In this document: positions 49,359 through 59,522 of the stretch, piece by piece
Numbering within the stretch: position 1 is the first letter of the stretch
Layout: each line of letters begins with the position of its first letter
Assembly: GCF_003289625.1 (NCBI RefSeq)
Contig: NZ_QMBN01000004.1
Coordinates: 1 to 64,000 of the forward strand
DNA from: Microbacterium sp. SMR1
GTDB lineage: Bacteria > Actinomycetota > Actinomycetes > Actinomycetales > Microbacteriaceae
DNA length: 64,000 bases
Direction of reading: 5' to 3'
Made by a program: the position numbers and the translations under genes
The notes under the pieces: generated by a model
What the model saw: only the letters and a program-made list of their open reading frames with translations
Database searches by the model: none
Told to the model about the DNA's origin: nothing

Positions 49359-49760
49359 ATGCCCGCACCGGTGCCCTACCTCCACTTCCCCGGCGATGCC
49401 GCCGACGCGCTCCGCTTCTACCGGTCGGTGTTCGGCGGTGAGCTCCAGCTGCACACCTTCGCCGACTTCGGCCGCGAGGACGGCCCGCCCGACCTCATCG
49501 CACACGGCGAACTGCGCGGCCCGGTCGACCTCTTCGGCGCCGATGATCCGGGGGATGCCGCCCGGCCGTCGATGACCGGGATCATGCTGGCCCTCCTCGG
49601 GGCCGGCGACGCGGAGACCTCGCATCGCTGGTTCGACGCCCTCGCCGCCGGAGGAACGGTCGTCGACCCCCTGCAACGCCGGGCGTGGGGAGACTCCGAC
49701 GGCCAGGTCACCGACCGTTACGGCCTCACCTGGCTGATCGGCTTCTCTGCCGCATCCTGA
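49359..49760 (+). CDS. VOC-superfamily (PhnB-like) protein
   Basis: 133 residues. VPYLHFPGDAADALRFYRSVFGGELQLHTFADF is the first beta-alpha-beta-beta-beta unit and RAWGDSDGQVTDRYGLTWLIGF the last, as in PhnB/glyoxalase-like proteins. Metal ligands and substrate are not established; related proteins are a mixed group. Monocistronic between repeats. Confidence 0.85.
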   Translation: MPAPVPYLHFPGDAADALRFYRSVFGGELQLHTFADFGREDGPPDLIAHGELRGPVDLFGADDPGDAARPSMTGIMLALLGAGDAETSHRWFDALAAGGTVVDPLQRRAWGDSDGQVTDRYGLTWLIGFSAAS

Positions 49761-49773
49761 CCCCCGCCGCAGT

Positions 49774-49839
49774 CCGTCGAGTCGCCAGGATGTGCGGATC
49801 CGGCGCCCCGCGCATCCGCCAATCCTGGCGAGTCGACCG
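49774..49839. repeat. palindromic intergenic repeat, copy 5
   Basis: CCGTCGAGTCGCCAGGAT / ATCCTGGCGAGTCGACCG arms, inner GCGGATCCGGCGCC and GCATCCGC. Between the convergent VOC and DUF4232 genes. Its first ~50 bp are identical to copy 6, 9.3 kb away. Confidence 0.9.
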
Positions 49840-50998: not shown

Positions 50999-52509
50999 CG
51001 GCGGTCGTGCAGGTGGTCGCGGTGCTTGGCGGCCTGGCGTGCACGCACGGGCAGGTCGATCGGGCCGGTGACGGTGAGCTCGTCTTCCCAGCACTCGATG
51101 CCGCGGACACCGGGCAGTCGCTCGCGCGTGAACACGGGGTCGAGCCCGGCGCGCCGCTGCTCGGTGTAGTCCTTGAGCAGGCGGAAAGCGATGCCCGACA
51201 GCAACGCGATCGCGATGAGGTTCGTCAGCGCCATCAGCCCCATCACGCCGTCGGCGAAGTTCCACACGAGGTCGGCTCCGACGACCGATCCGCCGAGGAC
51301 GGCGGCGACGACGAGCACGCGGTACCCCGTCAGCACGGCGCGGTTGGTCGAGATGAACTCGATGTTCGACTCGCCGTAGTAGTAGTTCCCGAGGATCGAC
51401 GAGAACGCGAGCATGAAGATGATGATGCTCAGGGCGATGTTCGACCACTCACCGAGGGTGTCGACGAGGGCTCCCTGGGTCAGGTCGATTCCCCGTGTAG
51501 CTCCGGCCAGATCGGGGACGGAGACCAGGATGATGAACGCGGTCACCGAGCACACGAGGAATGTGTCGAAGTAGACGCCGAGGGTCTGCACGAGGCCCTG
51601 CTTCACCGGATGAGTCACAGCGGCGCTCGCGCCGGCGTTCGGAGCCGAGCCGAGCCCCGCCTCGTTCGAGAACATGCCGCGCTTGACGCCGGTGAGGACG
51701 ATGTATCCGAACGCGGCCCCGACGACCTCGTTGAAGCCCCAGGCCGACGTGAAGATCTCGGCGAACACCGGCCCGATCCGATCGAGGTGCAGCGCGACGA
51801 CGATCACGCCGAGCACGAGATAGGCGAGCGCCATGATCGGCACGAGCACCTGCGTCACCGAGGCGATGCGGCGCACCCCGCCGAACACGACGAGCCCGGT
51901 GAGGAGGGCGACTCCCGCCCCGATGACCCACGGTAGCCAGGGCAGGTCGCCGCCGACGCTCGAGCTGATGGTGGCCGAGATCGTGTTGGCCTGCAGCGAG
52001 CTGAACGCGAAGGGGAAGCAGACGATCAGGATGACGGCGAAGAGGATGCCGAGCCAACGCGCACCCAGCCCGCGCTGCATGTAGTACGCCGGGCCACCGC
52101 GGAAACTGCCGCGGTCGCGCGTCTTGAACAGCTGCGCCAGCGACGACTCGATGAAGCTCGACGCTCCGCCGACGAACGCCATGACCCACATCCAGAACAC
52201 CGCGCCCGGGCCGCCCACCGCGATGGCGGTGCCGACGCCGGCGATGTTCCCCACTCCCACGCGGGAGGCCGCGGAGATCGTGAAGGCCTGGAAGGCGGAG
52301 ACCGACTGCGGCTTGCCGTCCGCGGTCTGCGGCGTCTTGTCGGTCAGCGTGCGGAACATCTCGGGGATCAGGCGGAACTGCACGACGCCCGACCGAACGG
52401 TGAAGTAGAGCCCGAGGAGGACCACGACCGGGAGGACGATCCAGGTCCAGAGGTGGTCGCCCCACGTGAGCAGCCAGTCGTTCACGGCATCCATGCCCGT
52501 CGAATCCAT
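50995..52509 (-). CDS. sodium:alanine/glycine symporter (AGCS family)
   Basis: 504 residues, about ten membrane helices. SRVGVGNIAGVGTAIAVGGPGAVFWMW is the AGCS signature; GMFSNEAGLGSAPNAGASAAVTHPVKQG is also typical. Imports small neutral amino acids with sodium. Divergent from the Mrp operon, whose antiporter would restore the sodium gradient. Cytoplasmic C-tail (VRGIECWEDELTVTGPIDLP) is charged. Confidence 0.93.
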   Translation of the reverse strand: MDSTGMDAVNDWLLTWGDHLWTWIVLPVVVLLGLYFTVRSGVVQFRLIPEMFRTLTDKTPQTADGKPQSVSAFQAFTISAASRVGVGNIAGVGTAIAVGGPGAVFWMWVMAFVGGASSFIESSLAQLFKTRDRGSFRGGPAYYMQRGLGARWLGILFAVILIVCFPFAFSSLQANTISATISSSVGGDLPWLPWVIGAGVALLTGLVVFGGVRRIASVTQVLVPIMALAYLVLGVIVVALHLDRIGPVFAEIFTSAWGFNEVVGAAFGYIVLTGVKRGMFSNEAGLGSAPNAGASAAVTHPVKQGLVQTLGVYFDTFLVCSVTAFIILVSVPDLAGATRGIDLTQGALVDTLGEWSNIALSIIIFMLAFSSILGNYYYGESNIEFISTNRAVLTGYRVLVVAAVLGGSVVGADLVWNFADGVMGLMALTNLIAIALLSGIAFRLLKDYTEQRRAGLDPVFTRERLPGVRGIECWEDELTVTGPIDLPVRARQAAKHRDHLHDRR

Positions 52510-52621
52510 GCTCGCCAGTATGACGACTCGACGACCCCCGTGTGAGGCGGACGCGTCTGATCAGCTCGGAATGGCCGGTGAGAAATGACTCATGACCGCG
52601 TTGTCAAGCATCCGCGCGCAC

Positions 52622-52651
52622 CTGATTTCCCCAGGTGACCCCCGGTACGCT
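52622..52651 (+). promoter_or_regulatory. probable promoter of the Mrp operon
   Basis: TACGCT at 52646-52651 fits a -10 and CTGATT (52622-52627) a weak -35 at 18 bp. A start about 52657 would place the structured RNA at the very 5' end of the transcript. Confidence 0.45.
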
Positions 52652-52658
52652 GTCAGCT

Positions 52659-52721
52659 GGTGAGCCGGGAAGTCTGGTCGGCACGTAGTCGTCGATCGAA
52701 CCCGGAGAATCCGTGCTCACC
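52659..52721 (+). ncRNA. candidate cis-regulatory structured RNA (riboswitch-like), copy 1, before the Mrp operon
   Basis: Closing stem GGTGAGC (52659-52665) / GCTCACC (52715-52721); inner stem CGGG (52666-52669) / CCCG (52701-52704); third stem GGTCG (52676-52680) / CGATC (52693-52697, one G-T pair). It contains the 20-nt block GCCGGGAAGTCTGGTCGGCA (52664-52683) found unchanged in copy 2. The 3' side carries GGAG (52703-52706), a ribosome site 6 nt before GTG 52713, so folding would hide the initiation region. Class not identified; an ion-responsive riboswitch is plausible given the antiporter genes. Confidence 0.65.
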
Positions 52722-52784
52722 GTCCTGCCTGCCCTCTGTTGCCGCGCGCCCGCGAACGCTCTGACCGGGCGGCGGCGCGCATGA
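52713..52784 (+). CDS. leader ORF translationally coupled to mrpA
   Basis: GTG at 52713, 6 nt after GGAG, opens a 23-residue frame (MLTVLPALCCRAPANALTGR plus RRA) whose TGA overlaps the mrpA ATG (ATGA at 52781-52784). No separate ribosome site precedes mrpA, so mrpA is probably translated by coupling from this leader, whose start lies inside the RNA motif. Confidence 0.5.
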   Translation: MLTVLPALCCRAPANALTGRRRA

Positions 52785-55558
52785 CCCTCCTCGTCGCGGT
52801 CGCCGCAGCCTGGTTGCTCGTGGCGCTCGCCCCCGCGTTCGTGCGGCTGACCGGACGGCACGCGGGGTGGCCTCTGGCCGCCGGCGTGCTCGCGGTGCTC
52901 GGGCTCGTCATCTCGGCGTGGAACCCACGGCAGGTCGTCCGCGAATCACTGCCGTGGATCCCGGCACTCGATGTCGCGCTGCGCCTGCGGCTGAACGGGC
53001 TCGCGCTGCTGTTCGCCGTGGTGGTGCTCGCGATCGGCGCGGTGGTGCTCATCTACTCGTCCTCGTACCTGCGTCAGCCTCGCTCGCAGGGCTTCTACGG
53101 CCTGATGACGGCGTTCGCGGCGGCGATGCTCACCCTCGTCCTCGCCGACGACCTCGTCGTGCTCTTCGTGGCGTGGGAGCTGACGACCCTGTGCTCGTAC
53201 CTGCTGATCCTCCGATCGGGCCCCGCGGCGAAAGAGCCCGCGACGCGCACGCTGCTCGTCACCGCCGCCGGTGGTCTCGCCCTGCTCGCCGCCGTCGTGA
53301 CCCTGATCGCGCGCACCGGCACGACCGAGCTCACCGCCGCCCTCGCCCACCCGCTGTGGCGCGAGGACCCGGGATTAGCGACCGTCGTCGCGGTGCTCGT
53401 CGCCCTCGCGGCCATGACGAAATCGGCGCAGTTCCCATTCCACGCCTGGCTTCCGGATGCCATGGTGGCGCCCGCCCCGGTGAGCGCTTATCTGCACGCG
53501 GCGGCGATGGTGAAGGCCGGGATCTTCCTGCTCATGCTCTTCGCGCCGGCCGCGTCGGAGGCGGCGATCTGGTCGCCGCTCCTCGTGGGCGTCGGGCTCT
53601 GGACAGCTCTCATGGGGGCGTTCTTCGCGGTTCGCCGCGCCGATATGAAGGAGCTGCTGGCGTACTCGACAGTCAGTCAGCTCGGCCTCCTGGTCGCGGT
53701 GATCGGCGCCGGCACGCCGACGGCGATGCTCGCGGCGAGCGCGCATGTGGTCGCTCATGCGCTGTTCAAGTCCGCCGGCTTCATGGGCGTCGGGCTGGTC
53801 GAGAAGCGCACCGGGACCCGGATCCTGACTGAGCTCCGCGGATCATGGCGGATGCTGCGCTGGGATGCCGCGATGCTGATCCTCGCGGCGGTCAGCATGG
53901 CCGGCATCCCTCCGATGCTCGGTTTCATCAGCAAGGAGCTGCTTCTCGACTCGTTCCTCGCGGCGGCTTCGCCTGCGCTGTCATGGACGCTCGCGATCGT
54001 GGCCACCGCTGGAGCCGTGCTGACGGTGGCGTACAGCCTGCGCCTGGTGCTTCCCCTGCTGCCCGGTCGCCTCGGTGCCGCTCGGCCCGGTGAGCACGGG
54101 CCGCAGGCACGCGCCTGGCGCGACACGCGAGCGATGTCGGTCGCGGTATCCGTCCCGGCGATCCTGGGGTTGGCTCTCGGTGCGGGCGCACCGCTGCTCG
54201 ACCCCCTCGTGCGACCCGCGGCAGCGGGGGCGGCGGGTGCCGACGCGGCATCCGTCTCGGGCATCTACCTCTGGCACGGTGTGAACGCGGCTCTGCTGCT
54301 GTCGGTGACGGCGATCGTGCTCGGAACGCTGGTCGGCCTCCGGCTGCGCGGTACGCCCGTGCCGCCGACACCGCAGCGGTGGTCAGGCGTCCTCGCCGTC
54401 CAGTATGCGCAGCGGGGCATCATCGCGCTCGGCCGTCGTGTCGGCGACCTGACGCGCTCCGACGCCCCCGCCGCGAACCTCGTGGTGCCGATCGTGCTGA
54501 TCGGTGCCGCCGCCGCAGCGCTTCCCGCGATGTGGCGCGGCTGGCCGCGCTACGACGAGCCGTTCCTCGTGCTCGATCTGCTCCTGCTCCTCCTCGTCGC
54601 GGCCGGGGTGATCGCGGTCTCGGTCGCCACCCGCCGCCTGACCGCGATCATCAGCGTGGGTGTGGCCGGGTTCGCCGTCGTGCTGTGGTTCCTGGTTCTG
54701 GGGGCCTCGGATGTCGCGGTGACGCAGCTCCTCGTCGAGATCCTGACCGTCGTCGTGATGGTGCTCGTACTGCGCCGGATGCCGCGCCGCCTGCGCCCGT
54801 CGCGCCCGCGACGACGCGTGCTCGCGGTCATCGCCGCGCTCGCCGCCGGGGGGACCGCGACGCTCGCCGCGCTCGTGTTCACCGGACACCGCGAGATCTC
54901 GGATGTCGCCGCCTTCTTCCTCCGCGAGGCGAAGGAACTGACCGGCGGCACCAACATCGTGAACACGATCCTGGTCGACTTCCGAGCGCTCGACACGCTC
55001 GGCGAGCTCGTCGTCCTGGGGATCGCAGCGGTATCGATCACCGCGCTTCTCGAGGCACGTCGAGCCGTTGACCGCCCGGTGCGGGAGGGAACCTCCGCCG
55101 CGCTCTCCGACGCCCGCGCCAACGCGGTCTTCCTCACCACTGTGGGACGCATCGTCGCCCCGGTGATGGTGGTCGGGTCGGCCTACGCGCTGCTGCGCGG
55201 TCACAACGACCCGGGCGGCGGCTTCATCGCGGCGCTCATCGGAGCCGCGGCCATCGCGCTGATCTACCTCGCCGCCCCGAGCGACGAGATCCCACGGATC
55301 GAGCGTTCGTACCTGGCGATCGCCGGAGCGGGTGTCGTCATCGCGGTCGGCACCGGTCTGCTGGGGCTTCTCGACGGCTCGTTCCTCCGGCCGCTGCACT
55401 TCGACATCGGCAGCCTGCACCTCACCACGGCCCTCGTCTTCGACCTGGGCGTGTATCTCGCGGTCTTCGGGGTCATCCTCGCCGCCATCAATCGCCTCGG
55501 TCTGTCTCCCGCCGAAGCGGTCCGAACCGACCGTTCGTCAGAAAGGAGCGTCCGGTGA
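52781..55558 (+). CDS. mrpA: Na+/H+ antiporter subunit A (MrpA/MnhA with fused MrpB domain)
   Basis: 925 residues from ATG at 52781. Residues 1-500 resemble NADH-quinone oxidoreductase L/M subunits: YGLMTAFAAAMLTLVLADDLVVLFVAWELTTLCSYLLI, and KSAQFPFHAWLPDAMVAPAPVSAYLHAAAMVKAGIFLL with the conserved proton-path lysines. The C-terminal 140 residues are an MrpB domain (FLTTVGRIVAPVMVVGSAYALLRGHNDPGGGFIAAL). Part of the multi-subunit membrane antiporter for sodium and alkali resistance. Overlaps mrpC by 4 nt (GTGA). Confidence 0.95.
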   Translation: MTLLVAVAAAWLLVALAPAFVRLTGRHAGWPLAAGVLAVLGLVISAWNPRQVVRESLPWIPALDVALRLRLNGLALLFAVVVLAIGAVVLIYSSSYLRQPRSQGFYGLMTAFAAAMLTLVLADDLVVLFVAWELTTLCSYLLILRSGPAAKEPATRTLLVTAAGGLALLAAVVTLIARTGTTELTAALAHPLWREDPGLATVVAVLVALAAMTKSAQFPFHAWLPDAMVAPAPVSAYLHAAAMVKAGIFLLMLFAPAASEAAIWSPLLVGVGLWTALMGAFFAVRRADMKELLAYSTVSQLGLLVAVIGAGTPTAMLAASAHVVAHALFKSAGFMGVGLVEKRTGTRILTELRGSWRMLRWDAAMLILAAVSMAGIPPMLGFISKELLLDSFLAAASPALSWTLAIVATAGAVLTVAYSLRLVLPLLPGRLGAARPGEHGPQARAWRDTRAMSVAVSVPAILGLALGAGAPLLDPLVRPAAAGAAGADAASVSGIYLWHGVNAALLLSVTAIVLGTLVGLRLRGTPVPPTPQRWSGVLAVQYAQRGIIALGRRVGDLTRSDAPAANLVVPIVLIGAAAAALPAMWRGWPRYDEPFLVLDLLLLLLVAAGVIAVSVATRRLTAIISVGVAGFAVVLWFLVLGASDVAVTQLLVEILTVVVMVLVLRRMPRRLRPSRPRRRVLAVIAALAAGGTATLAALVFTGHREISDVAAFFLREAKELTGGTNIVNTILVDFRALDTLGELVVLGIAAVSITALLEARRAVDRPVREGTSAALSDARANAVFLTTVGRIVAPVMVVGSAYALLRGHNDPGGGFIAALIGAAAIALIYLAAPSDEIPRIERSYLAIAGAGVVIAVGTGLLGLLDGSFLRPLHFDIGSLHLTTALVFDLGVYLAVFGVILAAINRLGLSPAEAVRTDRSSERSVR

Positions 55559-55938
55559 TCCTCGCCCTCACCATCGGTGTGCTCGTCGCCGGAGCGGTCT
55601 ACCTGCTGCTGCAGGAAGACCGGCTGCGCGTCATCCTCGGCTTCGTGCTGCTCTCGCACGCGGTCAATCTGCTGCTGTTCAGCGCCGGCGGCATCGACTC
55701 GCGCGAGGAGCCGCTCGGCGAGGCGCTGGATCCGGCGACCACGGCCGATCCGCTGCCGCAGGCGTTCGTCCTGACCGCGATCGTCATCGCCTTCGCGATC
55801 ACCATCTACCTGCTCGTCCTCGCCGTGACGGGCAACCCGTCCGAAGACGCCGGGCTCGAGGATGCGGGCGTCGACGATGCAGGGCCCGACGATGCGAAGG
55901 CCGCGGCCCCGGCCCCGACCCGAGGAGGACGCCGATGA
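55555..55938 (+). CDS. mrpC: Na+/H+ antiporter subunit C (MrpC/MnhC)
   Basis: 127 residues from GTG at 55555; NuoK-like. Three helices with LRVILGFVLLSHAVNLLLFSAGG and PLPQAFVLTAIVIAFAITIYLLVL. The C-terminal 30 residues are an acidic repeat (EDAGLEDAGVDDAGPDDA) that is not part of the fold. Overlaps mrpD by ATGA. Confidence 0.95.
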   Translation: MILALTIGVLVAGAVYLLLQEDRLRVILGFVLLSHAVNLLLFSAGGIDSREEPLGEALDPATTADPLPQAFVLTAIVIAFAITIYLLVLAVTGNPSEDAGLEDAGVDDAGPDDAKAAAPAPTRGGRR

Positions 55939-57464
55939 ACGACGCTCTGCTTCCGCTCATCGTCGCGGTGCCGCTCCTCGCGAGCGGTGTCGCCGCGTTC
56001 GCGCGCCGTCGTCATCGATGGGCGATCGTCCTGCTCCTGATCGTGCTGACGGCGAACCTCATCGCGGCGGCTGCGCTCGTGTGGGCGACAGCCGACGGAT
56101 CAGTCGTCGCCCACGGGATCGGCGGATGGCCCAACGGCATCGCCATCCCGTTCGTCGCCGACGCCTTCTCCGCCCTCATGCTCACGGTCGCTGGGCTGCT
56201 CACCCTCGTCTGCGTGGTCTTCGCGATCGTCGCGGACACCGGTCGCAACCGGCTCTTCCCCGCACTCGTCCTCGTGCTGACGGCGGGAGTGAACGGTGCG
56301 CTCCTGACGGCCGACCTGTTCAACCTCTTCGTCTTCATCGAGGTCATGCTGCTGCCCTCGTACGGGCTTCTGGTGCTCTCGCGTCGCGGTCGCGGCACCG
56401 ACGAGTCGGTGACCGGCTCGAGGCTCTACGTCACCTTCAACCTGTTCGTCTCCACGGTCTTCCTGGCCGGGGTGGCGCTCGTCTACGGCGTGGCGGGCAC
56501 GGTGAACCTCGCCGAGCTCGCCGGTGCCGCTCAGGAGTCGCCTCTGGTGGCGGCAGCGCTCGGGGTCTGCCTCTTCGCGCTCGCGATGAAGGCCGCCGTG
56601 GTGCCCGTGCACGGGTGGCTCGCCCGTGCGTACCCGTCGACGTCGCCGGCCATCACCGCGATGTTCTCGGGTCTGCACACGAAGGTCGCGATCTACGCCA
56701 TCTACCGCATCTACGCCGTCGGCTTCGAGGGCGACCAGGCCTACCTCTGGATCGGCGTCGCCGTCTTCAGCGCGACGATGCTGATCGGTGTGCTCGGCGC
56801 GGTGGGGGAGGACCGGATGCGGTCGATCCTCGCCTTCCACATGGTCAGCCAGATCGGCTACATCCTGCTCGGCGTCGCGCTGTTCACGCCCCTGGGTCTG
56901 GCCGCTGGCATCTTCTACCTGCTTCATCACATGATCGTGAAGGCATCGCTGTTCCTGTCTGCGGGCGCCATCGAGACCCCATTCGGGACGGATCGCCTCG
57001 ACGACCTGCGCGGTCGTGTCGGCCGGGAACCCATGCTGATGGTCGCCTTCGGCGTCGCGGCGCTGTCGCTCGCCGGCATCCCGCCGTTCTCGGGCTTCTT
57101 CGCGAAGCTCATGCTGCTCGTCGCGGCGGTCGAGGACGGACAGGTCGCGGCGGCGGTCATCGCGATCGTGGTGAGCCTGATCACCCTGCTGTCGATGCTG
57201 AAGATCTTCAACGCCGTCTTCGCCCGCACGGTCACCGGTGGTGAGCCGGCCGAGCCGGCCGAGCCGGTCAGGCCGGTCGGGCGCGGCGGGCTCGCGGTGG
57301 CGCAGCGCTCCACGACCCGCGCAGCGCTCGCCGCGCCGGCTGTCGTGCTGGCTGCGGCGACCCTCGCCCTCGGGCTCGGTGCGCAGGGGCTGTTCGCACT
57401 CGCGGAGGTCGCGGCCGCTGGCCTGCTCGATACGACCGCCTACGTCGGGGCGGTGCTGCCGTGA
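55935..57464 (+). CDS. mrpD: Na+/H+ antiporter subunit D (MrpD/MnhD)
   Basis: 509 residues, about 14 helices, NuoN/M-like. FNLFVFIEVMLLPSYGLLVLSRRG and AMKAAVVPVHGWLARAYPSTSPAITAMFSGLHTKVAIYAIYR hold conserved Glu and Lys residues of the proton path. A run of GEPAEPAEPVRPV near 435 is a short repeat in a cytoplasmic loop. Starts at ATG 55935 inside the mrpC stop. Confidence 0.95.
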   Translation: MNDALLPLIVAVPLLASGVAAFARRRHRWAIVLLLIVLTANLIAAAALVWATADGSVVAHGIGGWPNGIAIPFVADAFSALMLTVAGLLTLVCVVFAIVADTGRNRLFPALVLVLTAGVNGALLTADLFNLFVFIEVMLLPSYGLLVLSRRGRGTDESVTGSRLYVTFNLFVSTVFLAGVALVYGVAGTVNLAELAGAAQESPLVAAALGVCLFALAMKAAVVPVHGWLARAYPSTSPAITAMFSGLHTKVAIYAIYRIYAVGFEGDQAYLWIGVAVFSATMLIGVLGAVGEDRMRSILAFHMVSQIGYILLGVALFTPLGLAAGIFYLLHHMIVKASLFLSAGAIETPFGTDRLDDLRGRVGREPMLMVAFGVAALSLAGIPPFSGFFAKLMLLVAAVEDGQVAAAVIAIVVSLITLLSMLKIFNAVFARTVTGGEPAEPAEPVRPVGRGGLAVAQRSTTRAALAAPAVVLAAATLALGLGAQGLFALAEVAAAGLLDTTAYVGAVLP

Positions 57465-57823
57465 TCCTCAGCATCCTCACTCTGCCTTTCCGGTTCGCGG
57501 CTTTCGTCTGCTGGTTCGCCGCGCAGCTCACGCTGACGTCCGTGAGAGTGCTCGGCGACATCCTCAGTCCGGGGCTGGCCGCGACCCCGCGCGTCGTGCG
57601 GCTCCCGCTGGGGTCGGCGGGTGACCTGCACGTCACCGCGATCAGTGTCCTCATCACGCTGACTCCCGGCACGCTGGCCCTTGGCGCGGCACGAGATGAT
57701 GCCGGGGCGCGTTTCGTCATCGTGCATTCGCTGTACCACCGCGACACCGATTCGGCGCTGGCCGACTTCGCCGACATGGACCGCCGGATGACGCGCGCGG
57801 TCGCACTGGGGGGACCGAGATGA
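57461..57823 (+). CDS. mrpE: Na+/H+ antiporter subunit E (MrpE/MnhE)
   Basis: 120 residues from GTG at 57461. One or two N-terminal helices (ILTLPFRFAAFVCWFAAQLTLTSVRVLGDIL), then a soluble part with TAISVLITLTPGTLALGA and VIVHSLYHRD, typical of MrpE though shorter than the roughly 160-residue form. Overlaps mrpD and mrpF by 4 nt. Confidence 0.93.
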   Translation: MILSILTLPFRFAAFVCWFAAQLTLTSVRVLGDILSPGLAATPRVVRLPLGSAGDLHVTAISVLITLTPGTLALGAARDDAGARFVIVHSLYHRDTDSALADFADMDRRMTRAVALGGPR

Positions 57824-58077
57824 ATCTGCTGGATCTCGCCGCGGCGGGATGCGCGATCGCGATGATCGCGTCCGTCGTGCACATCCTGCGCGGCCCGACC
57901 CCCGCCGACCGTGTCATCGCCGCCGACCTGCTCACCTTCAGCCTGGTCGGGCTCGTGGCGCTCGTCGGCGTACGTCTGGCGCGCGAGGGCACGTTCGACC
58001 TCGTGCTGGTCGCGACCCTCGTCGCCTTCCTCGCCGCGGTCTCGCTCGCCCGCGCGTTGACGGGAGGGCGTCGATGA
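57820..58077 (+). CDS. mrpF: Na+/H+ antiporter subunit F (MrpF/MnhF)
   Basis: 85 residues, three helices. HILRGPTPADRVIAADLLTFSLVGLVAL is the MrpF/PhaF signature; FDLVLVATLVAFLAAVSLAR closes the last helix. Overlaps the subunit G start by ATGA. Confidence 0.95.
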   Translation: MNLLDLAAAGCAIAMIASVVHILRGPTPADRVIAADLLTFSLVGLVALVGVRLAREGTFDLVLVATLVAFLAAVSLARALTGGRR

Positions 58078-58403
58078 CGATCCTCGAGCTCATCGGTCAG
58101 ATCATCGCCCTGCTGGGCGCGCTCATCTTCGTCGTCGCCGCGGTCGGCCTGCGGCGCTTCCCCGACCCCTACGCGCGCATCTCGGCCGTCGCCACCGCGG
58201 CCGGTCTGGGGGTCGCGTTCATCACGGTCGGCGCGGTGCTGCAGGTTCCGACCGTGGACAACGTCGTCAAAGTCGTGCTCGCCGTACTCCTTCAGCTGAT
58301 CACCTCGGCGGTGGCGGCCATCGTCATCGCCCGCGCCGCGGTGAGCTCGGGGCATCGGTTCACCGACGGCACCGATACCGCGGCTCTCGACGAGGACGGA
58401 TGA
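58074..58403 (+). CDS. mrpG: Na+/H+ antiporter subunit G (MrpG/MnhG)
   Basis: 109 residues from ATG at 58074, three helices. GLRRFPDPYARISAVATAAGLGVAFITVG is the MrpG/PhaG motif. Last antiporter gene; the second structured RNA copy lies 74 bp further on. Confidence 0.95.
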   Translation: MTILELIGQIIALLGALIFVVAAVGLRRFPDPYARISAVATAAGLGVAFITVGAVLQVPTVDNVVKVVLAVLLQLITSAVAAIVIARAAVSSGHRFTDGTDTAALDEDG

Positions 58404-58443
58404 CACGCTGGGCGGGGCGGCCCGGGGCGCGGGCGCCGTGGCA

Positions 58444-58529
58444 TATGGTGAGGGAGTTCGGCCGCGAGGCCGAGCAGGTGCGCCGGGAAGTCTGGTCGGC
58501 AAGACGATGACCGCTACCCGAAGGGCACC
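58444..58529 (+). ncRNA. candidate cis-regulatory structured RNA, copy 2, before the gene at 58531
   Basis: A possible -10, TATGGT, lies at 58444-58449 and a small GGCC(GCGA)GGCC hairpin at 58461-58472. The motif proper is 58477-58529: GGTGC (58477-58481) / GCACC (58525-58529), CGGG (58484-58487) / CCCG (58517-58520), GGTC (58494-58497) / GACC (58509-58512). The 20-nt block at 58482-58501 is identical to copy 1, while the stems differ in sequence yet pair, which supports the fold. GAAGGG (58520-58525) is a ribosome site 5 nt before GTG 58531, within the 3' strands. Confidence 0.62.
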
Positions 58530-58530
58530 C

Positions 58531-59022
58531 GTGAACCCTCGCATCGCCGTTGCCGGTGACCGACCCGAACCGATGGCGGCCGCCATCGAGGCACTCGCGA
58601 CCGACGGGGAACCCACCTGCCTCGTGTGGACGGTGGATCTGGAGTCGGAGCCGACGGTCCGTCGCTCCCGCACCGAGCTCAAGCAGCGCTACGAATCCCT
58701 CCTCGCCCACGCGTCGGGTCTCGCGGCGCTGCGCAACCTGGTCGTCCTGCTCCGGCACGCCGACCGTATCCCCGAACGCAAGATGCACGCCGCTGCTGCA
58801 GCGCTCGCCACCCGGCTGCACGCCGACCTCGAACGGGCGCGCGGTCGCTACGTGGATGTCGCCGTCGTCGACATCAGCTCGTGCACCGACACCCGGCGCT
58901 TGCTCGACCGCGTCGAAGAGGTCGCGGGAACGGCGGCCGGTCCGGTCGGGAACGTCGCGCTGACCTGGCACGAGATCCGCGACCGCAGCATTCACGCCGC
59001 CGCTGCCGCGTCGCAGTTCTGA
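58531..59022 (+). CDS. hypothetical protein under the structured RNA motif
   Basis: 163 residues from GTG at 58531, preceded by GAAGGG; an in-frame ATG at 58507 lies inside the RNA motif and lacks a ribosome site. It begins MNPRIAVAGDRPEPMAAAIE and looks like an alpha/beta (Rossmann-like) single-domain protein: strands TCLVWTVDLES, RNLVVLLRHAD and YVDVAVVDISSC alternate with helices. The cofactor glycine motif of dehydrogenases is missing. Helix-rich middle RSRTELKQRYESLLAHASGLAAL. No family recognised; sharing its RNA element with the Mrp operon suggests a role in ion or pH stress. Confidence 0.7.
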   Translation: MNPRIAVAGDRPEPMAAAIEALATDGEPTCLVWTVDLESEPTVRRSRTELKQRYESLLAHASGLAALRNLVVLLRHADRIPERKMHAAAAALATRLHADLERARGRYVDVAVVDISSCTDTRRLLDRVEEVAGTAAGPVGNVALTWHEIRDRSIHAAAAASQF

Positions 59023-59035
59023 GCGCCGCCACCGT

Positions 59036-59101
59036 CCGTCGAGTCGCCAGGATGTGCGGATCCGGCGCCCCGCGCATCCGCAGCTTCTGGCGAGTCGACC
59101 G
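59036..59101. repeat. palindromic intergenic repeat, copy 6
   Basis: CCGTCGAGTCGCCAGGATGT start and CTGGCGAGTCGACCG end, almost identical to copy 5. Between the convergent hypothetical and GNAT genes. Confidence 0.9.
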
Positions 59102-59114
59102 CTCGGCGGAGGGG

Positions 59115-59522
59115 TCAGCCGCCGGCGACGACGTCCATGCCCGGGCCATCTGCCGGACGCGGCACGAAGCCGTGGCGCTCGTAGAAGGCGGCGCGGCCAC
59201 GCGCGGCGAAGAGCTGGATGTCGTCGACGCCGCGCCGCCGTGATTCATCGACCAGCATGCGCAGGATTTCGCTCCCGATGCCGCCGCCCCGCGCCGATTC
59301 CGCGACGATCATCTCGGTGACGAACGCGTGCAGCGCACCGTCGCTGATGAGGCGCCCGATGCCGACGAGCCTGCCGTCGTCGTCACGCGCCGAGCACACG
59401 ACCCAGCTGCCCGCGAGGGCCCGTTCGAAGGCCTCGGGTGACCACTCGGCCCAGCCCGTCTCGGCGTAGAGCGCGGCGAACTCGGCGGCCGTGGGCGGCG
59501 TGAGGGAGTAGTGGACGGTCAC
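59115..59522 (-). CDS. GNAT-family N-acetyltransferase
   Basis: 135 residues. The acetyl-CoA motif is MIVAESARGGGIGSEILRMLVDESRRRG (R/Q-x-x-G-x-G/A in variant form: ARGGGIG), followed by DIQLFAARGRAAFYERHGFVPRP, the usual GNAT end. Substrate unknown. Overlaps the start of its upstream neighbour (4 nt), in a three-gene leftward unit. Confidence 0.88.
   Translation of the reverse strand: MTVHYSLTPPTAAEFAALYAETGWAEWSPEAFERALAGSWVVCSARDDDGRLVGIGRLISDGALHAFVTEMIVAESARGGGIGSEILRMLVDESRRRGVDDIQLFAARGRAAFYERHGFVPRPADGPGMDVVAGG

Follow-up and report, generated by a model that had tools for sequence, protein, structure and literature searches.

Why should one short block of sequence stand unchanged on either side of a cation antiporter operon? 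The question is raised by the stretch of Microbacterium sp. SMR1 DNA analysed here (64,000 nucleotides (nt) in full, hereafter the window), in which the 20-nt block GCCGGGAAGTCTGGTCGGCA is found exactly at 52664-52683 and at 58482-58501, both times on the + strand. These are the only matches in the window when up to three mismatches are allowed, and 100 shuffles gave a mean of 0.04 matches with none reaching two. The block is part of a 25-nt element whose two copies flank the Mrp antiporter operon, as the initial annotation had stated; mrpA was recognised by Pfam and the other Mrp subunits by reading the frames of the window. The same annotation had taken the copies for a compact riboswitch-type RNA tied to a Na+/H+ antiporter and built on three conserved stems. 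A cis-acting RNA linked to such antiporters is indeed favoured by conservation, compensatory changes, a -10-like box and the genes downstream; of the three stems, one recurs among homologues. With a confidence just short of even, we propose that both copies belong to one class of cis-regulatory, riboswitch-like RNA, which would switch between two folds upon cation excess, most likely of Na+.

The 25-nt element and its stem

The full element reads GGNGN-GCCG-GGAAGNCTGGT-CGGC-N, starting with GGNGN five nt 5′ of the 20-nt block. Its conserved structure is a stem of four base pairs (bp), GCCG/CGGC, which closes the conserved 11-nt loop GGAAGNCTGGT, and compensatory changes are found at two of the pairs. 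A third strong copy in this genome, at contig position 150560 upstream of a NhaA gene (Pfam), carries two paired changes relative to the 20-nt block. The 3.26-Mb genome holds the loop in the form GGAAGTCTGGT at exactly three places, all of them within the element and none outside leaders. The covariance model likewise gives three strong copies in this genome (scores of the two window copies in Table 1); its weaker matches there, C2:898378 at 24 bits and two lower ones, appear to be due to chance, C2:898378 being the one inspected.

When the whole stem was left free in the search pattern, 17 matches were obtained in 15 of 296 genomes of the phylum. Sixteen of them are fully paired, three by double changes (two GTCG/CGAC and one GCTG/CAGC), and the seventeenth (locus L136) resembles a chance match. 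On 45 distinct 25-mers, 98.3% of the cells are paired and nine cells are changed on both sides, against 1.2 in shuffles, where none of 500 was as high; every control in which the register was slid scores lower than the true stem. Furthermore, we collected 254 distinct contexts with a filter that kept GGGAAG fixed and tolerated a single change among the remaining nine core letters as well as one broken pair, the two middle pairs being left free. The stem is GCCG/CGGC in 238 of these contexts, GTCG/CGAC in 12, GCTG/CAGC in three and CCCG/CGGC in one. GTCG/CGAC is met in three families, namely the window's own, f4 (locus L125) and f102 (locus L192), and one of the GCTG/CAGC cases (L216), with a changed loop and merely a short frame downstream, may have arisen by chance. 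The loop GGAAGNCTGGT is present in 252 of the 254 contexts, its N being T in 214, C in 30, A in seven and G in one, a constancy which is partly given by construction since the filter fixed letters and an exact scan supplied many of the loci. The positions following the element carry little information and conservation is limited to the 25 nt. These patterns point to a conserved, structured RNA with compensatory changes in the 5′ leader, its transcription being deduced from the position of a -10-like box.

Downstream genes, distribution and position in the leader

The genes under the element were compared in 198 distinct contexts, 194 of which have a readable frame, the representatives of the main clusters being named by Pfam. 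The NhaA cluster accounts for 132 frames, followed by CBS-domain proteins (13), CPA antiporters (13), ABC ATPases (seven; DrrA-type models are closest, below the cut-off) and MrpA (four); the rest are pairs of TrkH, of the family of the gene under copy 2 and of methyltransferase-like proteins (by eye), and 19 singletons. A Na+/Ca2+-exchanger-like protein is found under the element at L213. Behind the CBS gene, 10 of 11 readable loci have a gene for an ion-transporter-like protein (by eye), which resembles the one at L094 (CitMHS, ArsB and NhaB by Pfam). Fourteen of the loci compared lie outside the class of SMR1 and precede NhaA in six cases (one by Pfam, five by eye), Mrp in three, a CitMHS-like protein in one (Pfam), two related membrane proteins with no Pfam match, a Crp-type regulator in one and no frame in one. 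Judged from the predicted proteins, the common theme is monovalent-cation transport, chiefly Na+ export, and the element stands over functionally coherent genes from unrelated families, as is expected of a riboswitch.

Two side observations concern these genes. The CBS-domain gene overlaps the CitMHS/NhaB-like transporter gene by 4 nt in L012, L102, L105, L109, L140, L141 and L147, and the pair is a candidate cation exporter with a regulatory subunit. Membrane proteins with a common DPVSSVAYAIEA string and no Pfam match are found under the element in L182, L272 and L275.

With three of the four stem pairs left free, the pattern of the element matched 142 of 216 genomes of the class, compared with eight of 216 for the reversed control pattern (counted by eye); at least three of the 142 (G345, G388 and G480) show a chance-like match only. 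Among the matches listed there are five double-changed stems and eight that look like chance, which is the level of the control (by eye). The covariance model reached 271 of 394 genomes of the class at E ≤ 0.1 (a threshold at which up to a few tens may be chance matches), 45 of 59 genomes of the genus at E ≤ 0.01 and 100 of 396 genomes of the phylum at E ≤ 0.005. As this model was built with the stem it favours paired matches, a bias which the patterns with free pairs escape on those pairs. An exact scan with the 20-mer gave at least 119 loci, whose titles name actinobacteria in every case except for one metagenome bin labelled Dehalococcoides, which is probably misassigned.

Two genomes stand apart. 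G128 (loci L133 and L277-L279) holds nine copies of the element, partly clustered, which precede three NhaA genes, two CPA antiporters, two STAS-like proteins and other small proteins (partly by eye). At L219 (genome G316) the loop is changed to GGAAGACGGGT, still before NhaA, and genomes of the same genus scored alike; this form may be a variant with another specificity.

A TANNNT hexamer is present at -16 to -6 of the element in 160 of 230 non-redundant leaders, against 8.6 in shuffles, and starts at -13 in 103 leaders (the mode), at -14 in 34 and at -12 in 15. Among the other 70 leaders, 37 have a hexamer only further upstream, roughly as many as expected by chance, and 33 lack one as far as -45. 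From the element to the start codon the median distance is 36 nt (245 leaders). Given this -10-like box directly upstream in so many leaders, the element probably forms the 5′ end of the messenger RNA (mRNA). In SMR1 the hexamer lies at exactly -13 in copy 1 and in the nhaA copy; a strict sigma-70 scan returned no promoter at copy 1, and a scan of 52500-52760 for intrinsic terminators found none. Copy 2 has no hexamer at the usual place (TATGGT is found at 58444) and is directly preceded by a GC-rich hairpin; hence it may be transcribed from further upstream.

Proposed competing folds and rival explanations

In the mechanism that we propose, the element would stand at the mRNA 5′ end and the 3′ half of its hairpin (GGTCGGC) would pair alternatively with a downstream strand, typically GYCGACC, giving two mutually exclusive folds. 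The hairpin with its loop would be the sensing form, and an excess of cations would shift the balance between the folds, resulting in higher expression of the export genes. The signal would most likely be intracellular Na+, with Li+, K+ and alkaline pH less likely.

For up to 230 non-redundant leaders, complements of parts of the element were counted from the element to the start codon and compared with dinucleotide shuffles. Complements of GGTCGGC are enriched (68 leaders versus 31.7 ± 4.8; z-score 7.6) and those of GCCGGG are depleted (24 versus 51.1 ± 6.1; z-score -4.4). A mild enrichment is seen for TCTGGTC (33 versus 18.2) and CTGGTCG (34 versus 23.9), and CCGGGAA is at chance (4 versus 4.3). 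Among the 12 GTCG/CGAC variants, eight have TCGACC within 40 nt (one of them also CCGACC) and four have neither, as compared with 35 with TCGACC, 51 with CCGACC only, 10 with [CT]TGACC and 142 with none of these among the 238 forms with the common stem (Fisher p 0.0013). Together these counts are what one would expect if a strand further downstream competed with the 5′ arm for pairing with the hairpin's 3′ half, although they are no proof of it.

Several observations weigh against such a switch. The full 7-nt complement is present in at most 68 of 230 leaders, and all eight variants with TCGACC come from the genus of the window, several with near-identical leaders, so that they stand for few independent events. 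None of the three GCTG/CAGC variants has the predicted complement, one having CCGACC instead. Complements of the loop part GAAGTCT are enriched as well (11 versus 4.2), which a two-state model does not explain. In the energy model, over 178 leaders, the accessibility of the Shine-Dalgarno sequence does not change, the sequence being unpaired to 0.421 when the leader folds freely and to 0.425 when the hairpin is imposed (0.411 and 0.409 in shuffled leaders). The hairpin itself is rare in the free ensemble, at 0.012 versus 0.052 with shuffled leaders, and forcing it costs 9.4 kcal/mol versus 6.7 in shuffles; being so rare, it would need something external to stabilise it, unless the resting form is another one. 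Finally, a stem pair is broken in three matches among those listed (G402, G468 and G096), and the genes under the element also include ones for a Crp-type regulator, for STAS proteins, for a SpoIIE-type phosphatase and for proteins outside any known family.

Small hairpins with a conserved loop near the 5′ end of an mRNA are typical protein sites. The hairpin could accordingly be the RNA site of a regulatory protein, or of another trans factor, that would be the sensor of salt or pH and attach to the conserved loop, an explanation which we consider unlikely, though the best of the rivals. The weakness of the hairpin in the energy model speaks for it, as do the nine copies of G128, which are spread over antiporters, STAS and other small proteins in the manner of a regulon. 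Against it, no candidate factor turned up, though no systematic search for one was made, and a perfect antisense partner to the 11-nt loop is absent from the opposite strand throughout the SMR1 genome.

We give a still lower probability to a DNA operator placed shortly after the start of transcription, with a repressor that would read GYCG...CGRC half-sites. The constant spacing from the -10-like box, seen in 160 of 230 leaders, would fit such a site, paired changes in an inverted repeat are equally expected of a palindromic operator, and the sensing of ions is a proposal drawn from sequence comparison; the distant hexamers of the 37 leaders, being at the chance rate, argue neither way. However, the 11-nt centre is conserved and yet not palindromic, and the element holds about 41 bits (25 positions x 1.633, a figure inflated by the near-identical sequences from which the model came), which is more than operators usually hold. 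Moreover, downstream complements are enriched for one arm and depleted for the other, for which a DNA site offers no reason.

The three stems of the initial annotation (the GGTG outer stem, CGGG/CCCG and GGTCG/CGATC) are very improbable as the functional fold. Their arms are complementary by sequence in both copies, and the minimum-energy fold of copy 2 has all three; that of copy 1 has the outer one and misses the other two. Copy 1 does fold better than shuffles (z-score -2.99), copy 2 not when taken alone (-0.92) and to -2.46 together with its preceding hairpin. Among homologues, only the GGTCG pairing recurs: the 5′ GGTGnG arm has no excess of downstream complements (62 observed versus 60.2 shuffled) and CCGGG next to none (51 of 117 versus 47.0, with simpler shuffles), and the stem with compensatory changes is GCCG/CGGC, which lies inside the block.

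The minimum-energy fold of copy 1 pairs CGGG with TCCG, and TCTGG with CCGGA across the Shine-Dalgarno sequence, so that 52704-52706 pair with loop positions 15-17 of the element (52673-52675); the conserved 4-bp hairpin is missing from it, and CGATC at 52693-52697 is not paired there as a competing strand. Control by masking of the Shine-Dalgarno sequence is seen in the predicted fold of copy 1, but as a general mechanism it finds no support in the energy model over the 178 leaders.

That the element is a mobile or coding repeat without a part in regulation is hardly credible: several copies per genome are found (three strong ones here, nine in G128), but conservation stops at 25 nt, the downstream genes are thematically linked, the element has a -10-like box on one side and a start codon on the other, in this genome the exact loop is confined to leaders, and a scan of viral contigs with the exact common form, which left GTCG/CGAC, GCTG/CAGC and loop variants outside, gave no match and with it no sign of phage origin.

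Known RNA classes, candidate ligand and features of the window

Membership in a known class was examined with Rfam 15. Searched against its 4227 families, which we take to include the nhaA-II and DUF1646 models, the whole window gave no match at the gathering score. At E up to 10, the region of copy 1 (52560-52800) gave nothing, and that of copy 2 (58400-58600) two archaeal small nucleolar RNAs and one rhizobial small RNA, all chance-like. Among the homologous loci, 18 of 119 gave a match, to Ms_IGR-5 only and about 1.5 kb from the element. The cut-off of RF03057 (nhaA-I) was reached in none of 148 genomes of the class, and five matches below it lie away from the element, the three inspected being unlike antiporter leaders. 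The search for nhaA-I, nhaA-II and DUF1646 yielded no credible match, and by sequence and model comparison these classes do not explain the element.

The nhaA-I and nhaA-II RNAs, or Li+-I and Li+-II riboswitches, are short leaders found mostly before nhaA, for which control through ribosome access was proposed (PMC9646797). The element is likewise found in short leaders and most often before nhaA, but it has a smaller conserved core and no Rfam match. The DUF1646 motif, or Na+-I riboswitch, is tied to several unrelated Na+-related transporters; its reported distribution covers Firmicutes, Proteobacteria, Acidobacteria and Verrucomicrobia, and its predicted structure is larger (PMC9337991). The element shares with it the range of unrelated Na+-related transporter types, and differs in being actinobacterial, in its smaller predicted structure and in having no Rfam match. 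The ydaO riboswitch for cyclic di-AMP is discussed in Streptomyces together with osmotic and K+ biology and was reported there before cell-wall hydrolase genes (PMC10117811); it resembles the element in being actinobacterial and linked to cations, and differs in the genes downstream, the element again having no Rfam match. No description of this RNA was found in the open-access literature, subscription journals being outside the search, and the main texts of two large noncoding-RNA surveys do not contain the word nhaA (PMC8632094, PMC11109978). Hence the element looks like an RNA class of Actinomycetota that is, apparently, undescribed.

Both ligand and mechanism are proposed from the comparison of sequences. 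Among the known classes, those for Li+ are found mainly with nhaA (PMC9646797) and the one for Na+ with transporters of several types (PMC9337991); by this comparison, the breadth of transporter types under the element makes us lean towards Na+. An alkaline pH is a possible signal too, since an nhaA gene of Streptomyces coelicolor is reported to play a part in alkaline stress (PMC12892944). A wider proposal is that of a new, phylum-wide riboswitch class with a core of about 25 nt, which would sense an alkali cation directly, Na+ being the likeliest, and from the mRNA start would control Na+/H+ antiporters of several unrelated types; we hold it more tentatively, as somewhat below an even chance. 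If true, a large phylum of medical and industrial importance would govern its sodium and pH homeostasis through an RNA control of its own, seen in about two thirds of the sampled genomes of the class (142/216) with no match in Rfam 15. It would also show salt sensing at the gene level in these bacteria, group several proteins of unknown function with Na+ physiology and provide a very small RNA for studies of ion recognition.

The features of the window are collected in Table 1. A ribosome site and a GTG lie 3′ of both copies, as the initial annotation had it, but the GTG downstream of copy 1 opens a short leader frame and not mrpA. In L223 and L224 (same genus, 20 codons each) and in L177 (25 codons), mrpA has a comparable short frame before it, and as these frames overlap the mrpA start there also, translational coupling of the leader frame to mrpA is plausible.

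Table 1. Positions of the element copies and of associated features in the window
Feature	Position	Strand	Description
Copy 1 of the 25-nt element	52659..52683	+	Stem 52664-52667 with 52679-52682, loop 52668-52678; 45.3 bits
Copy 2 of the 25-nt element	58477..58501	+	Stem 58482-58485 with 58497-58500, loop 58486-58496; 46.1 bits
-10-like hexamer TACGCT of copy 1	52646..52651	+	Starts 13 nt before the element
CGATC, candidate competing strand	52693..52697	+	Complement of GGTCG 52676-52680; from sequence
GGAG, Shine-Dalgarno-like, before GTG 52713	52704..52707	+	From sequence; pairing in predicted fold
23-codon upstream frame, GTG...TGA	52713..52784	+	Overlaps the mrpA start (ATGA)
mrpA, first gene of the Mrp operon	52781..55558	+	ATG start; Pfam Proton_antipo_M, MnhB, MbhE, MbhD
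GC-rich hairpin directly 5′ of copy 2	58456..58475	+	Predicted fold
GACC, candidate competing strand	58509..58512	+	Complement of GGTC 58494-58497; from sequence, paired in minimum-energy fold
GAAGGG, Shine-Dalgarno-like, before GTG 58531	58520..58525	+	From sequence
Gene under copy 2 (163-residue protein)	58531..59022	+	GTG start; no family found

The protein encoded under copy 2 gave no match in Pfam or NCBIfam. Its AlphaFold model is a confident alpha/beta structure (mean predicted local distance difference test score, pLDDT, of 91), and a structure search of the PDB gave no match at E ≤ 0.001. The element itself led to relatives in L236, L226 and L008; a protein search of 80 genomes of the taxonomic family added seven, of which one (L256) is directly preceded by the element and the other six are not. 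The element-bearing relatives in L008 and L256 lie near antiporter or TrkH genes.

Frames near two gene ends of the window, at about 49700-49800 and 59030-59120, both contain MCGSGAPRIR..WRVD, which hints at a stretch repeated after two of its genes.

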